A DNA stretch of 64,000 nucleotides, taken from NCBI RefSeq assembly GCF_037038585.1, contig NC_092525.1, forward strand, positions 30,158,367 to 30,222,366, written 5' to 3'. The translations under genes and the position numbers were made by a program. Shown here one piece after another: positions 7,930 to 24,860 of this stretch. Origin of the DNA: Patagioenas fasciata. Its lineage: Eukaryota > Chordata > Aves > Columbiformes > Columbidae. The notes below the pieces were generated by a model. That model was not told where the DNA came from. It saw nothing but the letters and a program-made list of their open reading frames with translations, and did no database searches. The first letter of the stretch is position 1. Every line of letters begins with the position of its first letter.

Positions 7930-8680
7930 CTTGCCTCTCTTTCCCGGCCCGCCTGTGCCCAGAGCCTCCTCTGCCGTGGCGCTGTCCCACTCCCGCCGCG
8001 AAGTCCCCGCTCTGTGCTCAGCTCCCGCGGCCGGGCCGCGGCCACCGCGGGTGGAGCAGTGCAGTGACCTGCGTGGGCTGCGGCGCCTCGCGCGGCCAGC
8101 AGGGGGCTCCGCCGCTCCGCACCGCTGCGCGCCGCGCAGGCGGCTGGGGCTGTGGGACCGGTGCGGGCTGATCCCGCCTGGCTCCGGGAGCGCCGGCAGC
8201 CGCCCCGGGACCACCCCCCGCCGCCCTGCGGAGGGTGCTGGCCGCCGCCTTCCCGCAGTCCCCGCCACAGAGGGCCTGCCGCAGCTCCGCAGGTGCGGGA
8301 CGGGCCGCACCGGTCTCGAAGCTTTACTGCGCCGGTTCCGCCCGGCACGGCCCGGGGACGTGAGAGTGAGGCCGGCGGAGCGGCAGTCCCAGCTGGGCGA
8401 GGCGGCGGCTGCCGGGAGACAAAAGGCGGCTGTGTGTCCGCCTCTGCGGCAGCGCGAGGTGCGCGTCCGCTCCCCCTCCACGGGCAAGCAGGGACGGGGT
8501 CTGCCGCCCTGGCCGCAGCCCAGCCTCCCTCCCCGCCTTGCTGCGGCGTGGAGCTCGGAGCTCCCGAGGAAAGACCGTTTTGTTATTAACCGTAATAGGC
8601 GGCCGTGCGTGCCGAGGGCGGCGGGGAGCAGACAGCCCGTGGGAGCAGGCGGCTACGGTGCCGGTCTCCGGAGCGGATGC
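7930..8680. promoter_or_regulatory. CpG island A (largest upstream island)
   Basis: This is a sharp switch from AT-rich flank to about 750 bp of GC-rich sequence dense in CpG (for example GCGGCGCCTCGCGCGGCC near 8080-8097). It ends in an AT-rich patch around 8580. Overlapping long ORFs on both strands here are a by-product of GC richness. It is likely a promoter or a developmental (Polycomb-type) island; it could serve a distal MIR137HG start or an antisense RNA running left. Confidence 0.8.
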
Positions 8681-8869
8681 CAAAACCCATATGAACGGTG
8701 TTAACCCCAGGTAGAAAGGGAAGAAAGCGAGTCCTTACAAACCAGTGTTCAGATGTGGTGAGAAAGAGAGCGGCCACCGTTTATTGGGCACTGGTACTTC
8801 TGAATTATAAGAAACAATAACTAGATCGTTTTAGCATTTTTTTTCCTCTGGTACAGCATTTTGTGCGTT

Positions 8870-9245
8870 ACCGTGGAAGTGGTGCCGAGACGTGCGGAGG
8901 CACGGGAACGCGTGGCTGAGGGAGTGGCACCGGGCGGTGCCCAAAGTTCCCGCTCTCCCCACAGAAGCAGAAATCATCCCTTTGGGGCAGGGAGCGCGGG
9001 GCTGAGGCGGTGGGGAGAGAAGAAGGGAGGGGCTCCTGCCGGGCTGCCCCCTCGTAACCGCTGCCCCAGTCCGCCTGGCTTCCCGGGAGGTTTGCCTGGG
9101 GATGAGAGAGAGGCAAACTCGAGTTGTGCCGGGGAAAAGTTACTCGGCTGGGGGGAGTCGGGCGGGATCCTGAGCGCCGGCACCCGCCTGGCCCTGTTTG
9201 ATGCTGAGCTCTTGCCTTGTTTCTCGGCAAACCCGGGGAAAGGTC
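8870..9245. promoter_or_regulatory. CpG island B
   Basis: This GC-rich stretch has frequent CpG (GTGCCGAGACGTGCGGAGG at 8882-8900 and many CCGG/GCGC runs to about 9240). It is separated from island A by about 190 bp of AT-rich DNA. No convincing exon boundary is visible. Confidence 0.65.
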
Positions 9246-9514
9246 AGGCTTTGCCTAGGAAGTTTCCTTCCCGTAGTCATACGGAGAGAAGGGGAGAAAG
9301 AAAATAACATGTCGTCTGAGTGGCACCTCTCCTTCTTCTGTCTTCTGCTCTCCTGGCCAGGGTGGAAGAGAGGCTGGGGACAAGCGTAGCAGTGCTCCGT
9401 GCCCTGCCTGATGCCAACTCTCCCCGCTCCTAGCCCCTCTTAAAGAAACACATCCGAGCCCTCGTGGTGAAGAATCAAAACCAAGAAAAGTTGGATCTTT
9501 TTCCAAAAGGGGGC

Positions 9515-9665
9515 CCGGAGAATGCCGAGCCCGGTGGCTCCCGCCTGCCGCACGCTCGGCAGCGCGGAGCGCTCGCCGCGACTGGGGCTTGACCTGCAGA
9601 GGGCAATAGTTGGACGCAAATGCTGACAAAGGCGGCGAGGCTCGTTGGCTCGGCACCGTGGCCGG
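9515..9665. promoter_or_regulatory. CpG island C (small)
   Basis: This is a short CpG-rich patch (GCCGCACGCTCGGCAGCGCG near 9546-9565). It is followed directly by an AT-rich, homeodomain-site-rich stretch. Confidence 0.5.
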
Positions 9666-9689
9666 GACCCAAGAATGCCGTGTAGGTAG

Positions 9690-9965
9690 GCAGCAGTGCT
9701 TAATTAATGTATATTGAAACAAAAGATCGGGTAAATTGTTTGATTTGTCTTTAGGCTACGTTTTCAAGGCTAATCTAATTCATAACTGTTAGATGTATTC
9801 TAAAGAGATGAGGACAAACTTCCAGGAGAGGCATGCAGTTAACTCCAGAATTACCCTAAACACTGTTTGCCGGAATATTTACATTCAGCCGCTTGGATTC
9901 GTATTATTAGCGTTATTAGTCTCTGCTAATCAGATAGATGAGGTGGGAACGAACGGGTGCTTTCC
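9690..9965. promoter_or_regulatory. AT-rich element with repeated TAAT sites between CpG islands
   Basis: Between islands C and D lie CTTAATTAATG (9699-9709), GCTAATCTAATTC (9769-9781), GTATTATTAGCGTTATTAG (9901-9919) and GCTAATCAG (9925-9933). TAAT cores at this density suit homeodomain or POU binding and are typical of conserved promoter-proximal enhancers. Function is inferred from composition only. Confidence 0.4.
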
Positions 9966-9997
9966 CGATTGTGGTGCGATTGACAGGGCGACCGTGC

Positions 9998-10220
9998 AGA
10001 CTTTGCCAGAGGAGGCGGCAGCCGCCCGGCGCCCTGCGCGGCGGTGACGGGCGAGTCGCGCCTGGCCATTGTCTGCGGGGCCGGGCTGCTGCCGTTTCAG
10101 CACCGGACGGGCGGACAGCGCCCAGCCCTGCTCTCCCGCCGCTCTTGGGGGGCGGGGGAGGGAATTCGCCCCCGTCCGCTCCGGCAGCCCCTTCCCCGCT
10201 GGTGATGGGTTTATTAGGGA
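9998..10220. promoter_or_regulatory. CpG island D with the upstream RE1 motif
   Basis: GC- and CpG-rich (GCGCCCTGCGCGGCGGTGACGG near 10028-10049). It contains the expanded RE1 at 10096-10122 and a G-run cluster (GGGGGGCGGGGGAGGG near 10146-10161). Confidence 0.7.
10096..10122 (+). promoter_or_regulatory. RE1/NRSE motif with expanded spacing (REST site)
   Basis: Left half TTCAGCACC at 10096-10104 and right half GGACAGCGCC at 10113-10122 are both perfect against the RE1 consensus. They are separated by 8 nt instead of the canonical 2. That equals a half-site distance of about 17, inside the 16-19 range described for non-canonical REST sites. It sits in a CpG island 4.3 kb upstream of miR-137. 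REST silences neuronal genes outside neurons, and regulation of MIR137 by REST has been reported for the human gene. Occupancy here is inferred. Confidence 0.75.
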
Positions 10221-10460
10221 GTGGAAAGGAGCACCCCGACGAACGCACTTTGTCTCCCCGTCTGTGTGTGTAGACGCGGTTACCGTAGACGTCTGCAGCT
10301 TGTGTACATATATTCCTTTAATAATTATATATACGTGTCTGTAAGCTTATTATTCAGGAAAGACTAGAAAAAGCGAGCAAACTGGAGTGTTGGCAGCAGG
10401 GGTGATTGCGGGTCTGGATGCATACTCCATCTCTTCCCAACTCGCCGCCCCTTTCCTCCT

Positions 10461-10474
10461 CCCCCCCCCCCCCC
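10461..10474. repeat. poly(C) tract
   Basis: A run of about 14 C follows TCCTCCT, and a second C-run lies at about 10681-10689. On the minus strand these are G-tracts able to form non-B structure. They are likely to be length-polymorphic or assembly-uncertain. Confidence 0.8.
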
Positions 10475-11279
10475 AATCATATTTAACTGAGATTATGTCA
10501 AATTTCAGTGATCGGAAATGTCTTGCCCAAAAGCCCTTCCCGCTGGAAAAAGTCAAAAGGGTTCCTGGCATTAAAACGACTTTGCGTCATTCCTGATGAA
10601 ATTAGCAGCGCTGCATGTTTAGAGCCTGGCTGTGGATGCACTTTGGTCACAGTAAGAAGTAAAGAGATTTGGGGTTTAAGCCCCCCCCCTCCTGCATCTG
10701 AGCAGGAGCCTTCTGCTTTCACTAGCTACAAATCCTGAGACCGGTACTCGAAAGCACCTTAGTCCCGCAGTCCATTTTTTACTTAAGTGCAAGCAATGGG
10801 AATTGCTAACCTCGGCTAAGAAAATTTCATTTCCCCCATCCTGCTAAACGGTTCTGGTCGACATATGTTTGTTATCAGAGAGAGGTGCTATGAACACAGA
10901 GCCATTTTCTTAGTAGCTTTTTGACTCTGTGTTACCATAGTCCCACACGGCATTGGTCCTTTCCCGTTGGGAAGTCATGAATAAGAGACTGTGAAGCTTG
11001 CACGTCAGATCTTCCTCAATTAATCCACCATTAGCATGTTTGGGATCCTCTACTGGATGGTTAACAGCAGCTTTGGTAACTGTATGCTGTCCATGCCCAA
11101 TTATGCTCTGCTAAAAATGAACTCTGCAGAACAACCTTCCTGAGCTGTCAGTGTCTCCCGTTTTCTTATTTTAACGCTTGTGTGTAGTGGCAGGCGACAG
11201 ATGGTGTAGATCAGATCGATTTGATTGCATTAGGCGATTTTTTTTTTCCTCCTCTCCCCCCCGACTCCTTTTCTGGAAG

Positions 11280-11521
11280 CCCACATTCATCTGAGAGGCG
11301 ATCGCCGGGGACATGGGAAGCAAGAGCAGCCGCCGATGTGTGAAAGCAACGAGACATGGCCAGCCAGAGGCGCCGGGGTCCCTTCCCGGGGTTTGTTAAC
11401 ATGGTAATCCGGCACCAGGAGAGAAAGCTGCTTTCTGCTGCCCAGAGCCCATTCCCCATCACACATCAGATGACTCCCTGGTTTTACACACGGAGTTCTG
11501 CTCGAAACCTGGATTTAGAGG
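11280..11521 (+). ncRNA. MIR137HG: candidate first or early exon of the host RNA, with strong donor
   Basis: A near-consensus 5' splice site, AGAGG|GTAAGC, lies at 11521/11522. Upstream is a moderately GC-rich transcript-like stretch with a well-placed ATG (GAGACATGG, 11356-11358) that reads 55 codons to the donor. Spliced to the exon at 14024 this frame would stop within about 7 codons, which argues against a conventional protein and for an uncapped-at-unknown-site host RNA exon. The 5' boundary is a guess; transcription could start anywhere between about 10 and 11.3 kb. The implied intron would be about 2.5 kb (11522-14023). Confidence 0.35.
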
Positions 11522-11924
11522 GTAAGCTCCTCAATAGAGGTGGATTTCTGGCGGTTACTCGGGTAGGTGGCGAAAGGAGCGAGCTCCCAGAGATTTTAAA
11601 AAGAAGCTGCCTTTGAGCGGGAATGAATATTTTCTTCCTTCCGCTTTTCTTTCTTCCCCTCCTCCCTTTTTTTTTTTCCTCTTTTCTCCGCGGCCCCTTT
11701 CCTTTTCACCAGCAAGCCCCCTAATTCAGAACAGTTTCCCGCACGGAAAGACATCGTGCCTCTCTATTGACGGATGGGATCAATATTCCCCCCTCTGAAA
11801 TTCGCTTTTCGTGTCAAAACGGAGCTCTGCTCAGAGCTCCGCTGCCGATAGCTTAATTGTTTAATTCCCTCCATCCCTTCCCCTCCTTTCTGTCTCTCAC
11901 CCCTCCCCCCACCCCGCTCCGAGC

Positions 11925-12375
11925 ACGGCAGAGGCAGTGGAAGTGCCCCCCGGGGCCCCTCCTCCGGCACCCGGGCTCTTTCGGCGGGGGAACGGGGCGG
12001 CAGCGCCGATAAGCATGGCTTTCTGGAGCCAGGGAACAAAGGTATTTAACGCCGAGCGCGCCGCCGCGGGCGGCTCCCGCATGCGGCGGAGAAGGTGCGA
12101 GGCGGGCAGCGCGCCGGGGGCTTCGCTGCCACAGTGCTGAGCCTGCCCGGGGGGTGTGTGTGCGCCCGGGCGCGCCGGTACTGGGGCGGCAGGGACGGAC
12201 CCGCCGGCGGGAGGCGGCGCAGCGGGGGCCGGTTCTCGGCGCTGTCCGGCGCCGCGGGTGCTGAAGGGCCCGGCGGCCGGTGGGTGAGGCGGGCAGGGCC
12301 AGTGCGGGGCGACCGCGGCGGCGGGGCTGCGCAGGGGAAGTTTCGGAAGGCGCTGTATTCGCGGGGGAATGGGGG
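11925..12375. promoter_or_regulatory. CpG island E with the reverse RE1 motif
   Basis: This is the strongest CpG density nearest to the 14-kb exons (CCGCCGCGGGCGGC at 12061-12074, GGCGACCGCGGCGGCGGGG near 12309). It holds the RE1 at 12238-12265. A short ATG ORF at 12015 meets a possible donor AAAG|GTATTT at 12041/12042. It is a plausible promoter for the host RNA. Confidence 0.75.
12238..12265 (-). promoter_or_regulatory. second expanded-spacing RE1/NRSE motif, reverse orientation
   Basis: Read on the + strand it is GGCGCTGTCC (12238-12247), 9 nt, then GGTGCTGAA (12257-12265), which is the reverse complement of both RE1 half sites without a mismatch. The half-site distance is about 18, again in the non-canonical REST range. 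It lies in the CpG island 2.2 kb upstream of miR-137, in the opposite orientation to the motif at 10096. Confidence 0.72.
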
Positions 12376-13544
12376 GGATGCTTTTGAGGGAGCGGAAGGC
12401 AGTGTCAGATGGACACAGCGAGAATAAGGCGGGTGCCGCGCAGGTCGTCTTTTCCCCGGGAATCGCGTTCTTTAATATTAAAAGAAACCCACACGCAACC
12501 AAACAAACAACAACAAAAAAAACCCCACCGAAGTTTGGATTTCTGCCTAATTCTCGATGCATTGGTGGAGCGCCTCCAAATTTCGGAGAATGTCTAAGTG
12601 TATCACTGTAGAGCGTTTTCGCCACGACTCGGTGAATTTTACTTTTTCAAACGGCTTTTGTTCAAGTTGAAGGAAGCCTACTGCATCAGTTATCTGAGTT
12701 CCAATGCCGGTTAATGGGGTTACAGCCTTCAATTTCACAGCGGGGAAAAATTACAGTGTTTGTTATTTACTTTCTGTCTATCATTTAAAATGCAACTTGA
12801 AAGCTTGGTACGTTAGAGGAATATAGGAAATTACACCTAAAATGAGATTAAAATAGAAGAGAGTTGGATTTTTTTTTCTTAATTTAAGGTAATGTGGCTA
12901 TCAAAGTTTTTTTTTTTTATTATTTCTCTCTTTGTTTTTCTCTTTTCTTTCAAATTCAGACAAGAGTCTGTGTTACAAAACAAATGCTGTCTTCTCGTAT
13001 GTTTTCTTAGGAAGCATAGTGGTAATATGTCAGGGAAGGCAAGGGCTCGTGTTAAGGAAAGAATCTGTCGAAAAAACAAGCATCTTGTATTAATTTCAGT
13101 TGGAATCTAATCAACAAGCTGGTCAGTTACCGAGTGCAGTGGATAATGAGAGCTGTGCGTGCTGCATAATTACTCACGGCTGAAGAAGTGCGAAGTACCC
13201 CTTCTATGTGCGGGTTTTGACCGTGCATCGCTAGTTTCATTCCCCCCTGCCCGTCATTCACACAGAAGCTGTCCTTAGCATCAGGAGACTGGGTGAAATA
13301 ACCCGGAAAAGTTCCTAATCGCCAGGCGAAGAGTGCTGTGCCATGACGTTGCAGAGATCCTTTCTATTTAGTTGGCGAACAATAAACGTTTATTATCACC
13401 GCGGCAGATCATCAGACAAAGCTTTCCCCTCCCGCCTCCCCCAAGTACGAGCGCTTCTGATAAGGGAACTGCTCCGGGTGACAGGCAAAGCCGCAGGCGC
13501 CATTTGGAAATAACTTTTTTTAAAATTATTTCCTCTCCCCCCAC
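12376..13544. other. AT-rich DNA between CpG islands E and F
   Basis: A CAAA-type tract at 12484-12530, long T runs near 12860-12960, and a CATAATTACTC site near 13166. No exon supported. Confidence 0.5.
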
Positions 13545-13700
13545 CCCCGCCCCGATTCGCCTTTTGCAAACAGGGCAGGGAGGCGGCGGGTGTCGGTGCG
13601 GAGGTGCGCTCCGCTGCCCCCGCCCGCTGCGGAGCCGCCCGCCCGGCTCGGAACCCGCAGCCGCTGGGCTCTGCCGGTCGGGCACACGCGGGAAGTGAAG
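13545..13700. promoter_or_regulatory. CpG island F (small) and flanking TTTATGG sites
   Basis: CpG-rich from about 13545 to 13697 (GCCCCCGCCCGCTGCGGAGCC near 13615). It is followed at 13718-13750 by GCCTTTATGGCC and TTTTTATGTCAC, which resemble posterior HOX/CDX sites. It lies 330-480 bp upstream of the 115-nt exon and could hold an internal promoter. Confidence 0.5.
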
Positions 13701-14023
13701 TGCGCCGAATTTGTATTTTGAAGCCTTTATGGCCTCCGATTTTTATGTCACTAGGGAGGCCTGGCAGATGAGTGCCTCTGCTGAGCTCGGAGCCTTTGCT
13801 ATTTCTTTCTTTGATTTTCTTTCTCTTCATCGCTTTCCTTTCCTCCCTCCCTCCTCTTGGTAGCACACCGAGTCAGTGTGAGTCAGGACTTGCAAAATGC
13901 ATTTCCAAAGCCCAGATGAAAAGTCTCTCAGGCGTGGCTGCTGCTTTATCGAAGCTCTCCCAAGCCCACCTATGCAAACAGATTTGTAATATTTGTGTGC
14001 TTAACCGTGCATCTCTTTTACAG

Positions 14024-14138
14024 GAATCTGTTGCTGCGTGTGACATCTCTTGCAAGCTCCCAGGGAGAATTGATGGAGCATACAGCCAGGGAATAGGATG
14101 CCAGAGATGCACAGAGGAAGAAGCCAGGCAATCACCAG
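14024..14138 (+). ncRNA. MIR137HG: candidate internal exon of the miR-137 host RNA
   Basis: This 115-nt stretch has both splice signals: an acceptor CATCTCTTTTACAG ending at 14023, with a branch-point-like GCTTAAC about 20 nt upstream, and a strong donor CAG|GTAAAC at 14139. It contains stop codons in useful frames and shows no protein similarity, so it is best read as non-coding. It is separated from the miR-137 exon by an intron of only 136 nt (14139-14274). Strand, spacing and signal strength all fit a host-gene exon. No transcript evidence is available to me. Confidence 0.5.
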
Positions 14139-14274
14139 GTAAACTCAACCTTACTTTGATTTATTTCCTTTCACCTCGCCTGCAAGACCTTGCCCGCTCC
14201 AGTAAGGCAGCAGGAGAGCAGAGGGACTGTACGTGTGTGTATTAAACGCCTGCTCCTCTCGTTTGCCTCTGCAG
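14139..14274 (+). other. short candidate intron of the host RNA (136 nt)
   Basis: It starts GTAAAC and ends TTTGCCTCTGCAG, with pyrimidine-rich sequence before the acceptor and an ATTAAAC branch-like motif about 30 nt upstream. It is small even for a bird intron, so retained and spliced forms would differ only in the leader before the miR-137 exon. Confidence 0.45.
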
Positions 14275-14275
14275 C

Positions 14276-14440
14276 ATGGGAAGGTTCAGCGTCCATTGGA
14301 TATGGGACAAGATCACTCGGCAACCCTTGTGGATTCTCCTTCTTCTAGAAGGGAGTTATAGTTGTGGATTTATTGTCCCGGTGCAGCACTTCCACCACCA
14401 CCACCAGCAACAGCAGCAGCTTTCTGACTCTCTTCGGTGA
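14276..14440 (+). CDS. 54-codon small ORF inside pri-miR-137 (micropeptide candidate)
   Basis: The ATG is the second base of the exon that begins at 14275. The ORF reads a basic/aromatic N-terminus (MGRFSVHWIW), a hydrophobic run PLWILLLL at residues 17-24, then HHHH (residues 40-43) and QQQQQ (44-48) and ends SDSLR with TGA at 14438-14440. The hydrophobic stretch looks like a signal peptide or membrane anchor. The homopolymer residues come from the CAC/CAG repeat that abuts the hairpin, and the last codons lie in the lower stem. I do not recognise the protein. Translation is unproven: the ATG is only two bases from the splice junction, and any intact translated RNA must escape Drosha. It may be only a chance ORF. 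Confidence 0.2.
   Translation: MGRFSVHWIWDKITRQPLWILLLLEGSYSCGFIVPVQHFHHHHQQQQQLSDSLR
14393..14419 (+). repeat. (CAC)4-CAG-CAA-(CAG)3 trinucleotide repeat abutting pre-miR-137
   Basis: Four CAC units (14393-14404) are followed by CAG CAA CAG CAG CAG, ending one base before the hairpin. Human MIR137 has a length-variable 15-bp GC-rich repeat just 5' of the precursor, so a repeat occupies the same place here with a different unit. Length variation could alter pri-miRNA folding or processing; that is inference. Confidence 0.85.
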
Positions 14441-14462
14441 CGGGTATTCTTGGGTGGATAAT
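14440..14462 (+). ncRNA. MIR137: miR-137-5p passenger arm
   Basis: The 5' arm runs from ACGGGTATTC to GGATAAT and pairs with the 3p arm with a few bulges. Its first base is the last base of the TGA that closes the 54-codon ORF running into the hairpin. Which arm is used is known from the family, not from this sequence. Confidence 0.93.
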
Positions 14463-14475
14463 ACGGATTACGTTG

Positions 14476-14498
14476 TTATTGCTTAAGAATACGCGTAG
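14476..14498 (+). ncRNA. MIR137: mature miR-137-3p
   Basis: The 23-nt guide strand on the 3' arm starts TTATTGCTTAAG and ends ACGCGTAG. The seed (positions 2-8, TATTGCT) is at 14477-14483. It matches the vertebrate miR-137 guide as I recall it, with no mismatch. It is loaded into Argonaute and represses mRNAs carrying AGCAATA sites. Confidence 0.98.
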
Positions 14499-14499
14499 T

Positions 14500-15310
14500 C
14501 GAGGAGAGTACCGGCGGCGGGCAGGCAGGCAGGCAGCGCGACCGCCCCCAGCCCACCAGCTGGCTCCTCACCTCCTCTAGTTGCCAAGGTAGCACCTTTT
14601 CCGTCTTTTCCTACGCTTTGCAATGTTTCACTTTGCCTGTGTCTCTGCCCGGGCGGGGGGGAGCTCGGACGCCCTGTCCCCTGCGGAGTGGGGGTTGCCC
14701 GTGTGTGCGTGCGTGGGAGCAAGCATAGGGCCGGGGAGGGCCGGGGAAAGGCTTGCCAAGCCCCGCAGCAGCATGCCGCGGCGGCCCTGGCCCGTCGGGT
14801 GCTGCGGGCAGGGCTGACCGGGCGAGCCGGGGCCGCTGGGGTGCGCCTCCGCGGGCAGCGCTTGGCAGGCTGCACCGGGGCCGGGGAGGAGGTCCCCGCC
14901 CCGCCCGGGAAGCCCCGGTGCCCCGATACACGGCAAACAGTCCCCAGTCCCCGCCGCGCCCGGTACTCGCGTCCCCTCGCCCCTCTCCGACGGGGAGCGC
15001 GGGGCGGGGACGGGAGGACTGGGGCGGCCGGCCTGCCGGCCGGGGGGATCCTCGTTCCAAGGCACTGGCTGCCCGCAGGGCCGGGACGGCACCGGCTCTG
15101 CCCGCACCCGCCGGCAGAGCCCGGAATGCTGCCCCCTCTGCGGCCCACGGGTCGTGCGGGGCCAGGGTGCTGCCCGCGGGCAGGGAGGTGCCGAGCACCC
15201 GTGCAAGCGAGGCCAGGGGCACCCCGCACAGCCGTGGATGTGCCCTCCCCACCGAGAGGCGTTTGCTCCCTGGCTGCCGAGGGCTCCAGCCACCCGGTGA
15301 GGCCGCTACT
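14500..15310. promoter_or_regulatory. CpG island G overlapping and following miR-137
   Basis: About 800 bp of very GC-rich, CpG-dense sequence starts at the 3' base of the hairpin. The human MIR137 hairpin is likewise embedded in a CpG island that becomes methylated in tumours. Long ORFs on both strands within it show no recognisable domain and are compositional. Confidence 0.8.
14520..14535 (+). repeat. (GGCA)4 microsatellite 3' of pre-miR-137
   Basis: Four perfect GGCA units follow a GGCGGCGG stretch, about 11 nt beyond the base of the hairpin. They lie just past the CNNC processing motifs. With the CAC/CAG tract on the other side, the hairpin is bracketed by two short tandem repeats. Confidence 0.85.
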
Positions 15311-17112
15311 GGGGAGCAGGTTGTGGCTGATTGCTTCCGAAAGGGTGATTCCTTGCTCCCTTATCCTCATCCCACAATACCAACCTGGTGAGGCAGGATT
15401 AAGAACTCACCTCACACCAGCCCCAACTCAGCAGGATGGGAAGCACCCAGCTGAATGTAGACCTCATCAGTCTCTAAGGCCCCAGGTTGAGATACATGTT
15501 AAGGGTCAGGGCGTTGTTTACCCTTCTGCCCCTCAAGTGATGGCTTCTTTGCCCCTTCAAAGGGCTCAGTAGTCCCCAAATGCTTCTTGCAGCTGGGCAG
15601 GAGGGAGACACAACCAAGGGAGTGTTGATTCCCATTGCTGGCCAAGCCATGCCGCATTTTTTAACAGAGAAGAAGAAGTGCCTCCATCCTTTCCTCCAGC
15701 ATCAGGGACAGGCTTTGGTTTAAAACCTTGGTAAGTCTTTCAGATGCTGTACTTGGGAAAACACAGGCATAGCATTCGTACTTCCAGTCTTTTCTCTCCT
15801 GCTCCTCTGCCCCCAGGACTGCTAGAGGCAAGGAGCGGAGTGTGATCAGCCCCATGTTTCCCCATTTGAGACATCTTCACATGCCCAGAGGATCTCAGGT
15901 CTTGTTTCTACATAGTTGCAATTGTGAGACAAGGTTTTAGCTGTAAGTGAATTAGATCAGAAGCCATTTTAAAGCAAGACCAAGAGTATTGTGATGAGGT
16001 AGCTTTTTGAATGGATCCTTCCCCAAGCTCAGCTATGATGACGCTGAGAATGATTTTTTTAACATGGATGAGCCAGATGTGGGGTGATCCTTAAGTTGTG
16101 AGTGCAAGGCTTGTTGATGGATAATGTCTCTTGCTTAGCATTTGAAAGGTCATCTATATTCTGCTTAATTGTTTCCAACAACTGCCAGAGGAATCTTACT
16201 CTGTTGCCTGCAGTAGCGAGTGGAACGCTTATTGTTACACAGGCGTGTGGATGTTATTCTTTAGACACATCTTTGATGCCAGCACTCTGATCCTCATGTT
16301 TCTCTAATACTACTTGAAAGCAGATATTTTTTTCTTGTCGTTTAGTATGTTCAACAGCCTCAGAAATAATGTTAAGTTATGCTTTAAAAAGACATGATCA
16401 GCTGCTAAACCATAGTCAGTTCAGCACTGTAACCCAGCCACATTCACAAGTGCTGCAGGAACAGCAGTGGAAACACTATTTTAAACATCCAGGTTTGTAT
16501 TACAAACCTTCCTCTGATCTGAGCTTTTAGTTGACATCTTCCCTTCAGTCAGGACTTAGAGTATTATCAGGAGTTCCCATTTCATCACATAAAGGATGTG
16601 GTTCTGTTTGCTCTTTGCTTGGTTGAGTATCTTGTGCAGTATGCATTGGACTGGTACCTAAAAAGACAAGCTTAGCAAAATGTTTCTTTATACCTGGTTT
16701 CTTCTAGTTGCCTTCTCTTTAGCATGATGAGCTGATTTTGCTGAACAATGCCTTAATGACAGGGCTGATGCATTTTTAATGCTTGTACTCTTTGTCATTG
16801 TCAAAATTAACATTTTGATGATTGTAGGTTTCTTTTCTCTAAAATCTTTTGAGAATTGTTATGATGTGTGTGTTAAAATAGTGAAACTGTAAGGTCCAAT
16901 CGGAGAAATACTGGGTATGCTCACTAAAATAATTATAAAATACTGTGTAAAGGCTCAATAGCATAAGGGCTCTTAGAATGATGTTTTCCAATAGCACGAT
17001 CTCAGAGTGGCTCTCCCCATTCATTAGCAGTTCCTGGGATCTGTCATGTATGTATATTGAAGGACAGAAGCAGTCATTTCTGAACAACAGATATCTAAAA
17101 AGAGACTATTTA

Positions 17113-24019: not shown

Positions 24020-24860
24020 TGGCCTGTTCCTGCACAGTTAGACCAAGTTAGAGCAAGCTGGAGAGTTGGGCGGGGAAAAATTTAATGAAATATAACAAAG
24101 TCAAGCGTAGAGTCTTGCATCTCAGTAGGAACAACCCCAGGTTCCAGTATAGGTTGGGGAATGACCTATTAGAGAGCAGTGTAGGGGAAAGGGACCTGGG
24201 GCTCCTGGTGGACAGCAGGACGATCATGAGCCAGCACTGTGCCCTTGTGGCCAGGAAGGCCAATGGCATCCTGGGGTGTATTAGAAGGGGGTGGTCAGTA
24301 GATCGAGAGAGGTTCTCCTTCCCCTCTGCTCTGCCCTGGTGAGACCACATCTGGAATATTGTGTCCAGTTTTGGGCCTCTCAGTTCAAGAAGGACAGGGA
24401 ACTGCTGGAGTCCAGCACAGAGCAACAAAGATGATTAAGGCAGAGGAGCATCTCTCTTATGAGGAAAGGCTGAGGGAGCTGGGTCTCTTTAGCTTGAAGA
24501 AGAGGAGATTGAGGGGTGACCTTATTAATGTTTACAAATATATAAAGGATGAGTGTCATGAGGATGGAGCCAGGCTCTTCTCAGTGACTACCAGTGGTAG
24601 GACAAGGGATAGTGGGTTCAAACTGGAACACAAGAGGTTCCACTTAAATTTGAGAAGAAACTTCTTCTCAGTGAGGGTAACAAGAACACTGGAACAGGCT
24701 GTCCAGGGGAGTTGTGGAGTCTCCTACTCTGCAGACATTCAAAACCCGCCTGAACACATTCCTGTGTAACCTCATCTGGGTGTTCCTGCTCTGGCAGGGG
24801 GATTGGACTGGATGATCTTTTGAGGTCCCTTCCAATCCCTAACATTCTGTGATTCTGTGA
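24020..24860 (+). mobile_element. CR1 LINE, 5'-truncated 3' end
   Basis: CR1 ORF2 C-terminal sequence is recognisable ([44 protein letters not shown] at about 24140-24285, then [31 protein letters not shown] at about 24450-24550) with frameshifts between blocks. It ends in ATTCTGTGATTCTGTGA (24844-24860). It has lost the RT catalytic part. Confidence 0.93.

Follow-up and report, generated by a model that had tools for sequence, protein, structure and literature searches.

The locus studied here raises the question of which gene a 64-kb stretch of Patagioenas fasciata DNA carries and how that gene might be controlled. The whole stretch, which we call the window, corresponds to C6:30158367-30222366 in an assembly that totals 1.45 Gb and comprises 359 contigs. 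Scanning these 64 kb with Rfam, we identified a single match above a gathering score, to the mir-137 family (RF00694), at 14433-14503 on the + strand (87.1 bits against a gathering cut-off of 56.7, E 4.3e-18, model positions 1-72). Five other rows were observed in the window at E<=5, each below its gathering score, and one of them is the antisense of the hairpin itself. Both mature arms, matched with the known sequences of the family, are present without mismatch and once each on the window's + strand, miR-137-5p at 14440-14462 and miR-137-3p at 14476-14498. The 3p arm, the mature guide, carries the seed UAUUGCU at 14477-14483 (+). The hairpin at 14433-14503 is confirmed as miR-137, an already known microRNA, and its presence in a bird is expected because miR-137 is a deeply conserved neuronal microRNA. 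In chicken ovary, gga-miR-137 has been sequenced and checked by qRT-PCR, in a study whose available text does not state the gene copy (PMC3700833).

The predicted fold of 14400-14540 has an energy of -57.1 kcal/mol (z -4.68), and none of 200 dinucleotide shuffles was as stable. In this predicted fold A14440 is paired with U14496, so that the two arms end with a 2-nt 3′ overhang, and a basal stem of 11 pairs runs inward from 14427/14509. A basal UG at 14425-14426 (+) lies exactly at the basal junction of the fold. Counted from the 5p start, this is -15/-14, a shift of one base from the canonical -14/-13. Downstream, two overlapping CNNC motifs occupy 14512-14518 (+), starting at 14512 (+14 past the 3p end) and at 14515 (+17). 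An earlier note on this DNA had proposed the miR-137 precursor and its coordinates, and the covariance score, the exact arms and the stability of the fold all bear these out. The note had also called the Drosha flanking motifs intact, which holds for the CNNC motifs and for a UG at the basal junction, with the amendment that the UG is displaced by one base. Four GGCA units follow directly after the second CNNC at 14520-14535 and may form a microsatellite within the basal flank.

The 5′ side of the human hairpin is marked by a 15-bp VNTR six bases ahead of pre-miR-137, for which two repeats are described throughout primates and at least three in human (PMC6692358). Unlike human MIR137, the window has no such array. 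A CAC/CAG-rich run at 14392-14420 (+), just 5′ of the hairpin, occupies the place of the human VNTR, and none of the 13 tandem-repeat rows of the window (score >=50) lies near 14380-14430. The 18 bases at 14424-14441 are identical to the final 18 bases of the published reverse VNTR primer after reverse complementation; the full 24-base complement has no match at <=3 mismatches, and the forward primer likewise has none (primers as given in PMC6692358).

Both PF14691 matches lie on C6, at 30319873 and 30330023 on the + strand, which places them 147 and 157 kb downstream. We take PF14691 as a marker of DPYD exons, and in human DPYD lies downstream of MIR137 on the same strand. On the other side, a PLPPR5-like exon is located 233 kb upstream of the hairpin and on its strand. 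Paralemmin exons gave 11 rows, on C48 (4), C34 (4) and C6 (3). The three C6 exons, near 29.75 Mb, are on the strand opposite to the hairpin, 414-423 kb upstream of it, and fit PALMD. DPYD, PLPPR5 and PALMD make up the human MIR137 neighbourhood, and the identity of the window as the MIR137 locus is supported by the covariance model, by both arms and by the DPYD-type, PLPPR5-like and PALMD-type exons around it, in agreement with the earlier note.

That note had additionally described the window as otherwise gene-poor and had read every other feature as host gene or regulatory landscape. The former fits the part tested, as 12 of the 60 listed ORFs of the window had no Pfam match at E<=0.1 (10/10 and 2/2), and no tRNAs were found in the 64 kb. 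The latter was too broad: the segment at 24302-24769 is an interspersed repeat, for which 101813 first-look candidates yielded 150 scored matches, counting the segment itself. The ORF at this position belongs to no Pfam family and, to our eye, resembles a CR1-type LINE remnant. Dozens of equal-score matches to the repeat fragment were observed on C47 between about 9.9 and 43.2 Mb, many of them as inverted pairs ~167 kb apart, a pattern that looks like a huge palindromic amplicon array. Elsewhere in the genome, C2 carries a nuclear copy of mitochondrial DNA in which cytochrome b is followed by tRNA-Pro and by an ND6-like frame on the other strand, an arrangement typical of birds; we recognised this frame as ND6 by eye, and tRNA-Thr was not found in the C2 copy. 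Its cytochrome b scores 685 bits against 1bcc, which we take to be the chicken entry, and the next chain scores 575. The gene arrangement and this score support a bird as the source of the genome.

Upstream of and around the hairpin, a CpG-rich domain extends over 8001-15000 (unstranded; GC >0.5 and CpG observed/expected >0.6 in 500-base bins), with CpG-rich bins at 8001-9000, 9501-10500, 11501-12500, 13501-14000 and 14501-15000. This domain is likely the promoter region of the host transcript. Within it we found two motifs for the neuronal repressor REST (REST/NRSE type) in which both half-sites are exact, one with a 9-bp gap at 12238-12265 on the - strand (C6:30170604-30170631) and one with an 8-bp gap at 10096-10122 on the + strand (C6:30168462-30168488). 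They lie 2168 and 4311 bases ahead of the hairpin, about 2.1 kb apart, and each matches over 19 bases without a mismatch inside a CpG-rich bin. Both were found only by a variable-gap search of the half-sites. At the canonical gap the REST consensus gave 0 sites in the window at <=3 mismatches, half-site gaps of 0 and 1 gave none at the same threshold, and gap 0 gave one chance-level row with 4 mismatches. The REST consensus used is supported by the genome-wide gap counts.

In these counts, which covered gaps 2-14, exact half-site pairs occur 14 times at gap 2, never at gaps 3-6, 14 times at gaps 7-10 (one at 7, eight at 8 and five at 9) and once at gaps 11-14, the lone pair having gap 11. The two motifs of the window are among the 14 pairs at gaps 7-10, and reversed half-site controls returned 0 in all four genome searches. 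For REST sites in human, a gap of 2 bp or one of 7-9 bp is reported, and none of 3-6 bp (PMC8096226), and altered REST gaps in mouse stem cells are described as most often 0-1 bp long or lengthened by 7-11 bp (PMC2573930). The gap distribution of the bird genome follows the reported human REST rule. With gaps of 8 and 9, the window motifs fit the noncanonical NRSE/RE1 class (7-9 bp gaps) as described in PMC8096226; the window differs from that description in holding two such putative sites ~2.1 kb apart with all half-sites exact.

The location of the split motifs in CpG-rich bins, together with a status as REST sites that is read from sequence, could be taken to mean that they are chance products of GC-rich islands. 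We consider this very improbable, given motifs that are exact over 19 bases, shuffles of 8000-15500 of which 0/200 fell below 3 mismatches, and genome gap counts that fit the human REST rule with nothing at gaps 3-6 or in the reversed controls. With 30 permuted half-site pairs, the best match had 3 mismatches in 7 cases and 4 in 20, and the other 3 pairs matched nothing within 4; half-sites in swapped order reached 3 mismatches at best.

If the two motifs are instead REST sites, their positions can be compared with those known in human. ENCODE REST occupancy in intron 1 of human MIR137HG is given as chr1:98513800-98514144, and a predicted REST site at the VNTR as 98511764-98511782 (PMC4393679). 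These coordinates place the intron-1 occupancy 2.0-2.4 kb from the VNTR site, approximately the distance from the motif at 12238-12265 to the hairpin (2.17 kb). For the motif at 10096 we had no human counterpart to compare. ChIP in SH-SY5Y cells is reported to have detected REST at the VNTR but not in intron 1 (PMC4393679), and the distal site may be cell-type dependent for this reason. According to the available text of a review, miR-137 is under direct REST control in a mouse striatal cell model (PMC11241563). Because the SH-SY5Y result runs contrary at intron 1 and because no canonical-gap REST motif at <=5 mismatches lies within 13400-15500, we infer REST binding at 10096-10122 and 12238-12265 and do not count it as observed. 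Altogether, the locus is like MIR137 of human (1p21.3) and chicken (gga-miR-137) in its mature arms, its hairpin, a same-strand DPYD downstream and a putative REST motif ~2.2 kb upstream. It differs from the known locus by a second such motif 4.3 kb upstream, and from the human internal promoter by the absence of a canonical-gap REST-like match at 13400-15500.

A covariance search of the genome for mir-137, in which 66 of 293944 first-look candidates were scored, revealed a second mir-137 at C39:3056149-3056218. At 80.8 bits it is above the cut-off and is the only other above-cut-off copy listed in the genome searches; the other row of that search is the antisense of the C39 hairpin and is below the cut-off. 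The window's own mir-137 was absent from the genome search results, which did list both REST motifs, 2 and 4 kb from it; its stretch seems to be missing from the genome sequence searched, to which all genome counts refer, and an identical third copy could be missed likewise. The same search in 14 control genomes gave below-cut-off matches in 3. The earlier note had named a better-matching second locus as the observation that would speak against its reading; a second locus does exist, and it scores lower than the window's gene.

Neither arm of the C39 copy is identical to that of the window's gene. Its 3p arm has one change, A to G at nucleotide 10, and the seeds are identical because this is the sole 3p change. 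With a 141-base query, the C39 match has 86% identity over 80 of the 141 bases, and the outer flanks of the two hairpins align poorly. The C39 fold has a z of -3.06, with 1/200 shuffles as stable. Comparing the two folds, we found 33 stem pairs common to both, of which 29 are unchanged. Two pairs carry a substitution in one partner and 2 in both partners, among the latter the pair that contains 3p nucleotide 10. At the base of the stem, three additional positions differ in their pairing or pair in just one of the folds.

Ahead of the C39 hairpin, and on its strand, is a PLPPR2-like gene, and a SWSAP1-like start codon lies ~1.1 kb beyond the hairpin. Pfam matched one of the three PLPPR2-like ORFs to PAP2 (25.9 bits, just below the 27.2 cut-off) and gave only ATPase matches for the SWSAP1-like ORF, all below cut-offs. 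With Pfam results this weak, the names rest on sequence resemblance, on the neighbour order LPPR2-SWSAP1-EPOR reported in a bird ('Hidden genes in birds', PMC4539667) and on the cross-match of one exon: the PLPPR2-like exon has three matches in the genome, namely itself, the PLPPR5-like exon on C6 and one on C48. The available text of that paper describes LPPR5 as the closest paralogue of LPPR2, and LPPR2, SWSAP1 and EPOR as GC-rich genes. Two of these had been reported as missing, LPPR2 from birds and SWSAP1 from chicken. Neither microRNA nor miR appears as a term in its main text (PMC4539667).

The C39 locus also has a REST-like site of its own, 143 bp upstream of the hairpin, with the canonical gap and 2 mismatches. 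It is the only one at <=3 mismatches in the 120 kb scanned. In shuffles of the 3-kb C39 locus, 0/200 fell below 4 mismatches, and with the REST motif one base shorter 1/200 had a match within 3.

The C39 and window genes are most likely paralogues that would date from vertebrate genome duplication, since each follows a PLPPR-type neighbour in the same orientation, PLPPR2-like in one case and PLPPR5-like in the other. A pseudogene, or a late copy of the window's gene, is an improbable origin for the C39 hairpin. The confinement of the 86% identity to part of the query, with poorly aligning outer flanks, can be read in its favour, whereas the stem keeps 29 of its 33 common pairs unchanged, the hairpin lies beyond a PLPPR2-like gene as the window's gene lies beyond a PLPPR5-like exon, and the canonical-gap REST-like site has 2 mismatches where no shuffle fell below 4. 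The existence of a second full-length mir-137 gene on C39 further allows that the window holds a decayed or non-expressed copy and that the working gene is elsewhere, for example on C39. There is very little to recommend this, as the window copy has both canonical mature arms unchanged, the higher score (87.1 against 80.8 bits), the DPYD/PALMD neighbourhood and two exact putative REST motifs.

Extra mir-137 genes are known in fish. Zebrafish is described as having three mir-137 genes with the same pre-miR sequence (PMC5070046). The bird genome resembles zebrafish in having more than one copy; unlike the zebrafish copies as described there, the C39 gene has two arms that each depart from those of the window's gene, and it adjoins PLPPR2-like and SWSAP1-like genes. 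In the literature listings searched we picked out no description of a second bird mir-137, and the name mir-137b is already in print. Among the papers that contain this name, two are, by title, on medaka and salmon, and MirGeneDB names imply vertebrate mir-137 paralogues. We make no claim of a first report.

The window's gene might work as follows. A non-coding host transcript would start in the CpG-rich domain at ~8-15 kb and carry the hairpin, from which Drosha and Dicer would cut out miR-137-3p (14476-14498). Loaded into Argonaute, miR-137-3p would use its seed to repress neuronal target mRNAs. REST on the NRSEs at 12238-12265 and 10096-10122 would keep the gene off in non-neural cells, and loss of REST during neuronal differentiation would release it. 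The second mir-137, beside the PLPPR2-like gene, would make an almost identical microRNA. We hold with high confidence that the window carries the bird orthologue of MIR137, with predicted silencing by REST via two gapped NRSEs and with a probable duplication paralogue elsewhere in the genome. The analysis shows the sequence, the predicted structure, the synteny, the exact REST motifs and the second locus; the steps from transcription, processing, binding and repression to the age of the duplication are those the sequence would predict. We lean, with more reserve, towards a wider picture in which vertebrate genome duplication left birds with two mir-137 genes that are both under REST control, one on the DPYD side with a gapped site pair and one on the PLPPR2-SWSAP1-EPOR side with a canonical-gap site 143 bp away, their guides differing by one base.

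Less expected than the hairpin itself are the two exact gapped REST motifs and the second mir-137 on the GC-rich contig C39. The locus has a putative REST motif about as far from the hairpin as REST occupancy lies in human, even though the two lineages are ~300 million years apart, and the window motifs are both gapped. With two genes, removing the window's mir-137 in a bird may leave miR-137 activity. Bird miR-137 reads and probes may likewise mix the two genes, and because the second mir-137 gene exists, small-RNA reads are to be separated at 3p nucleotide 10.
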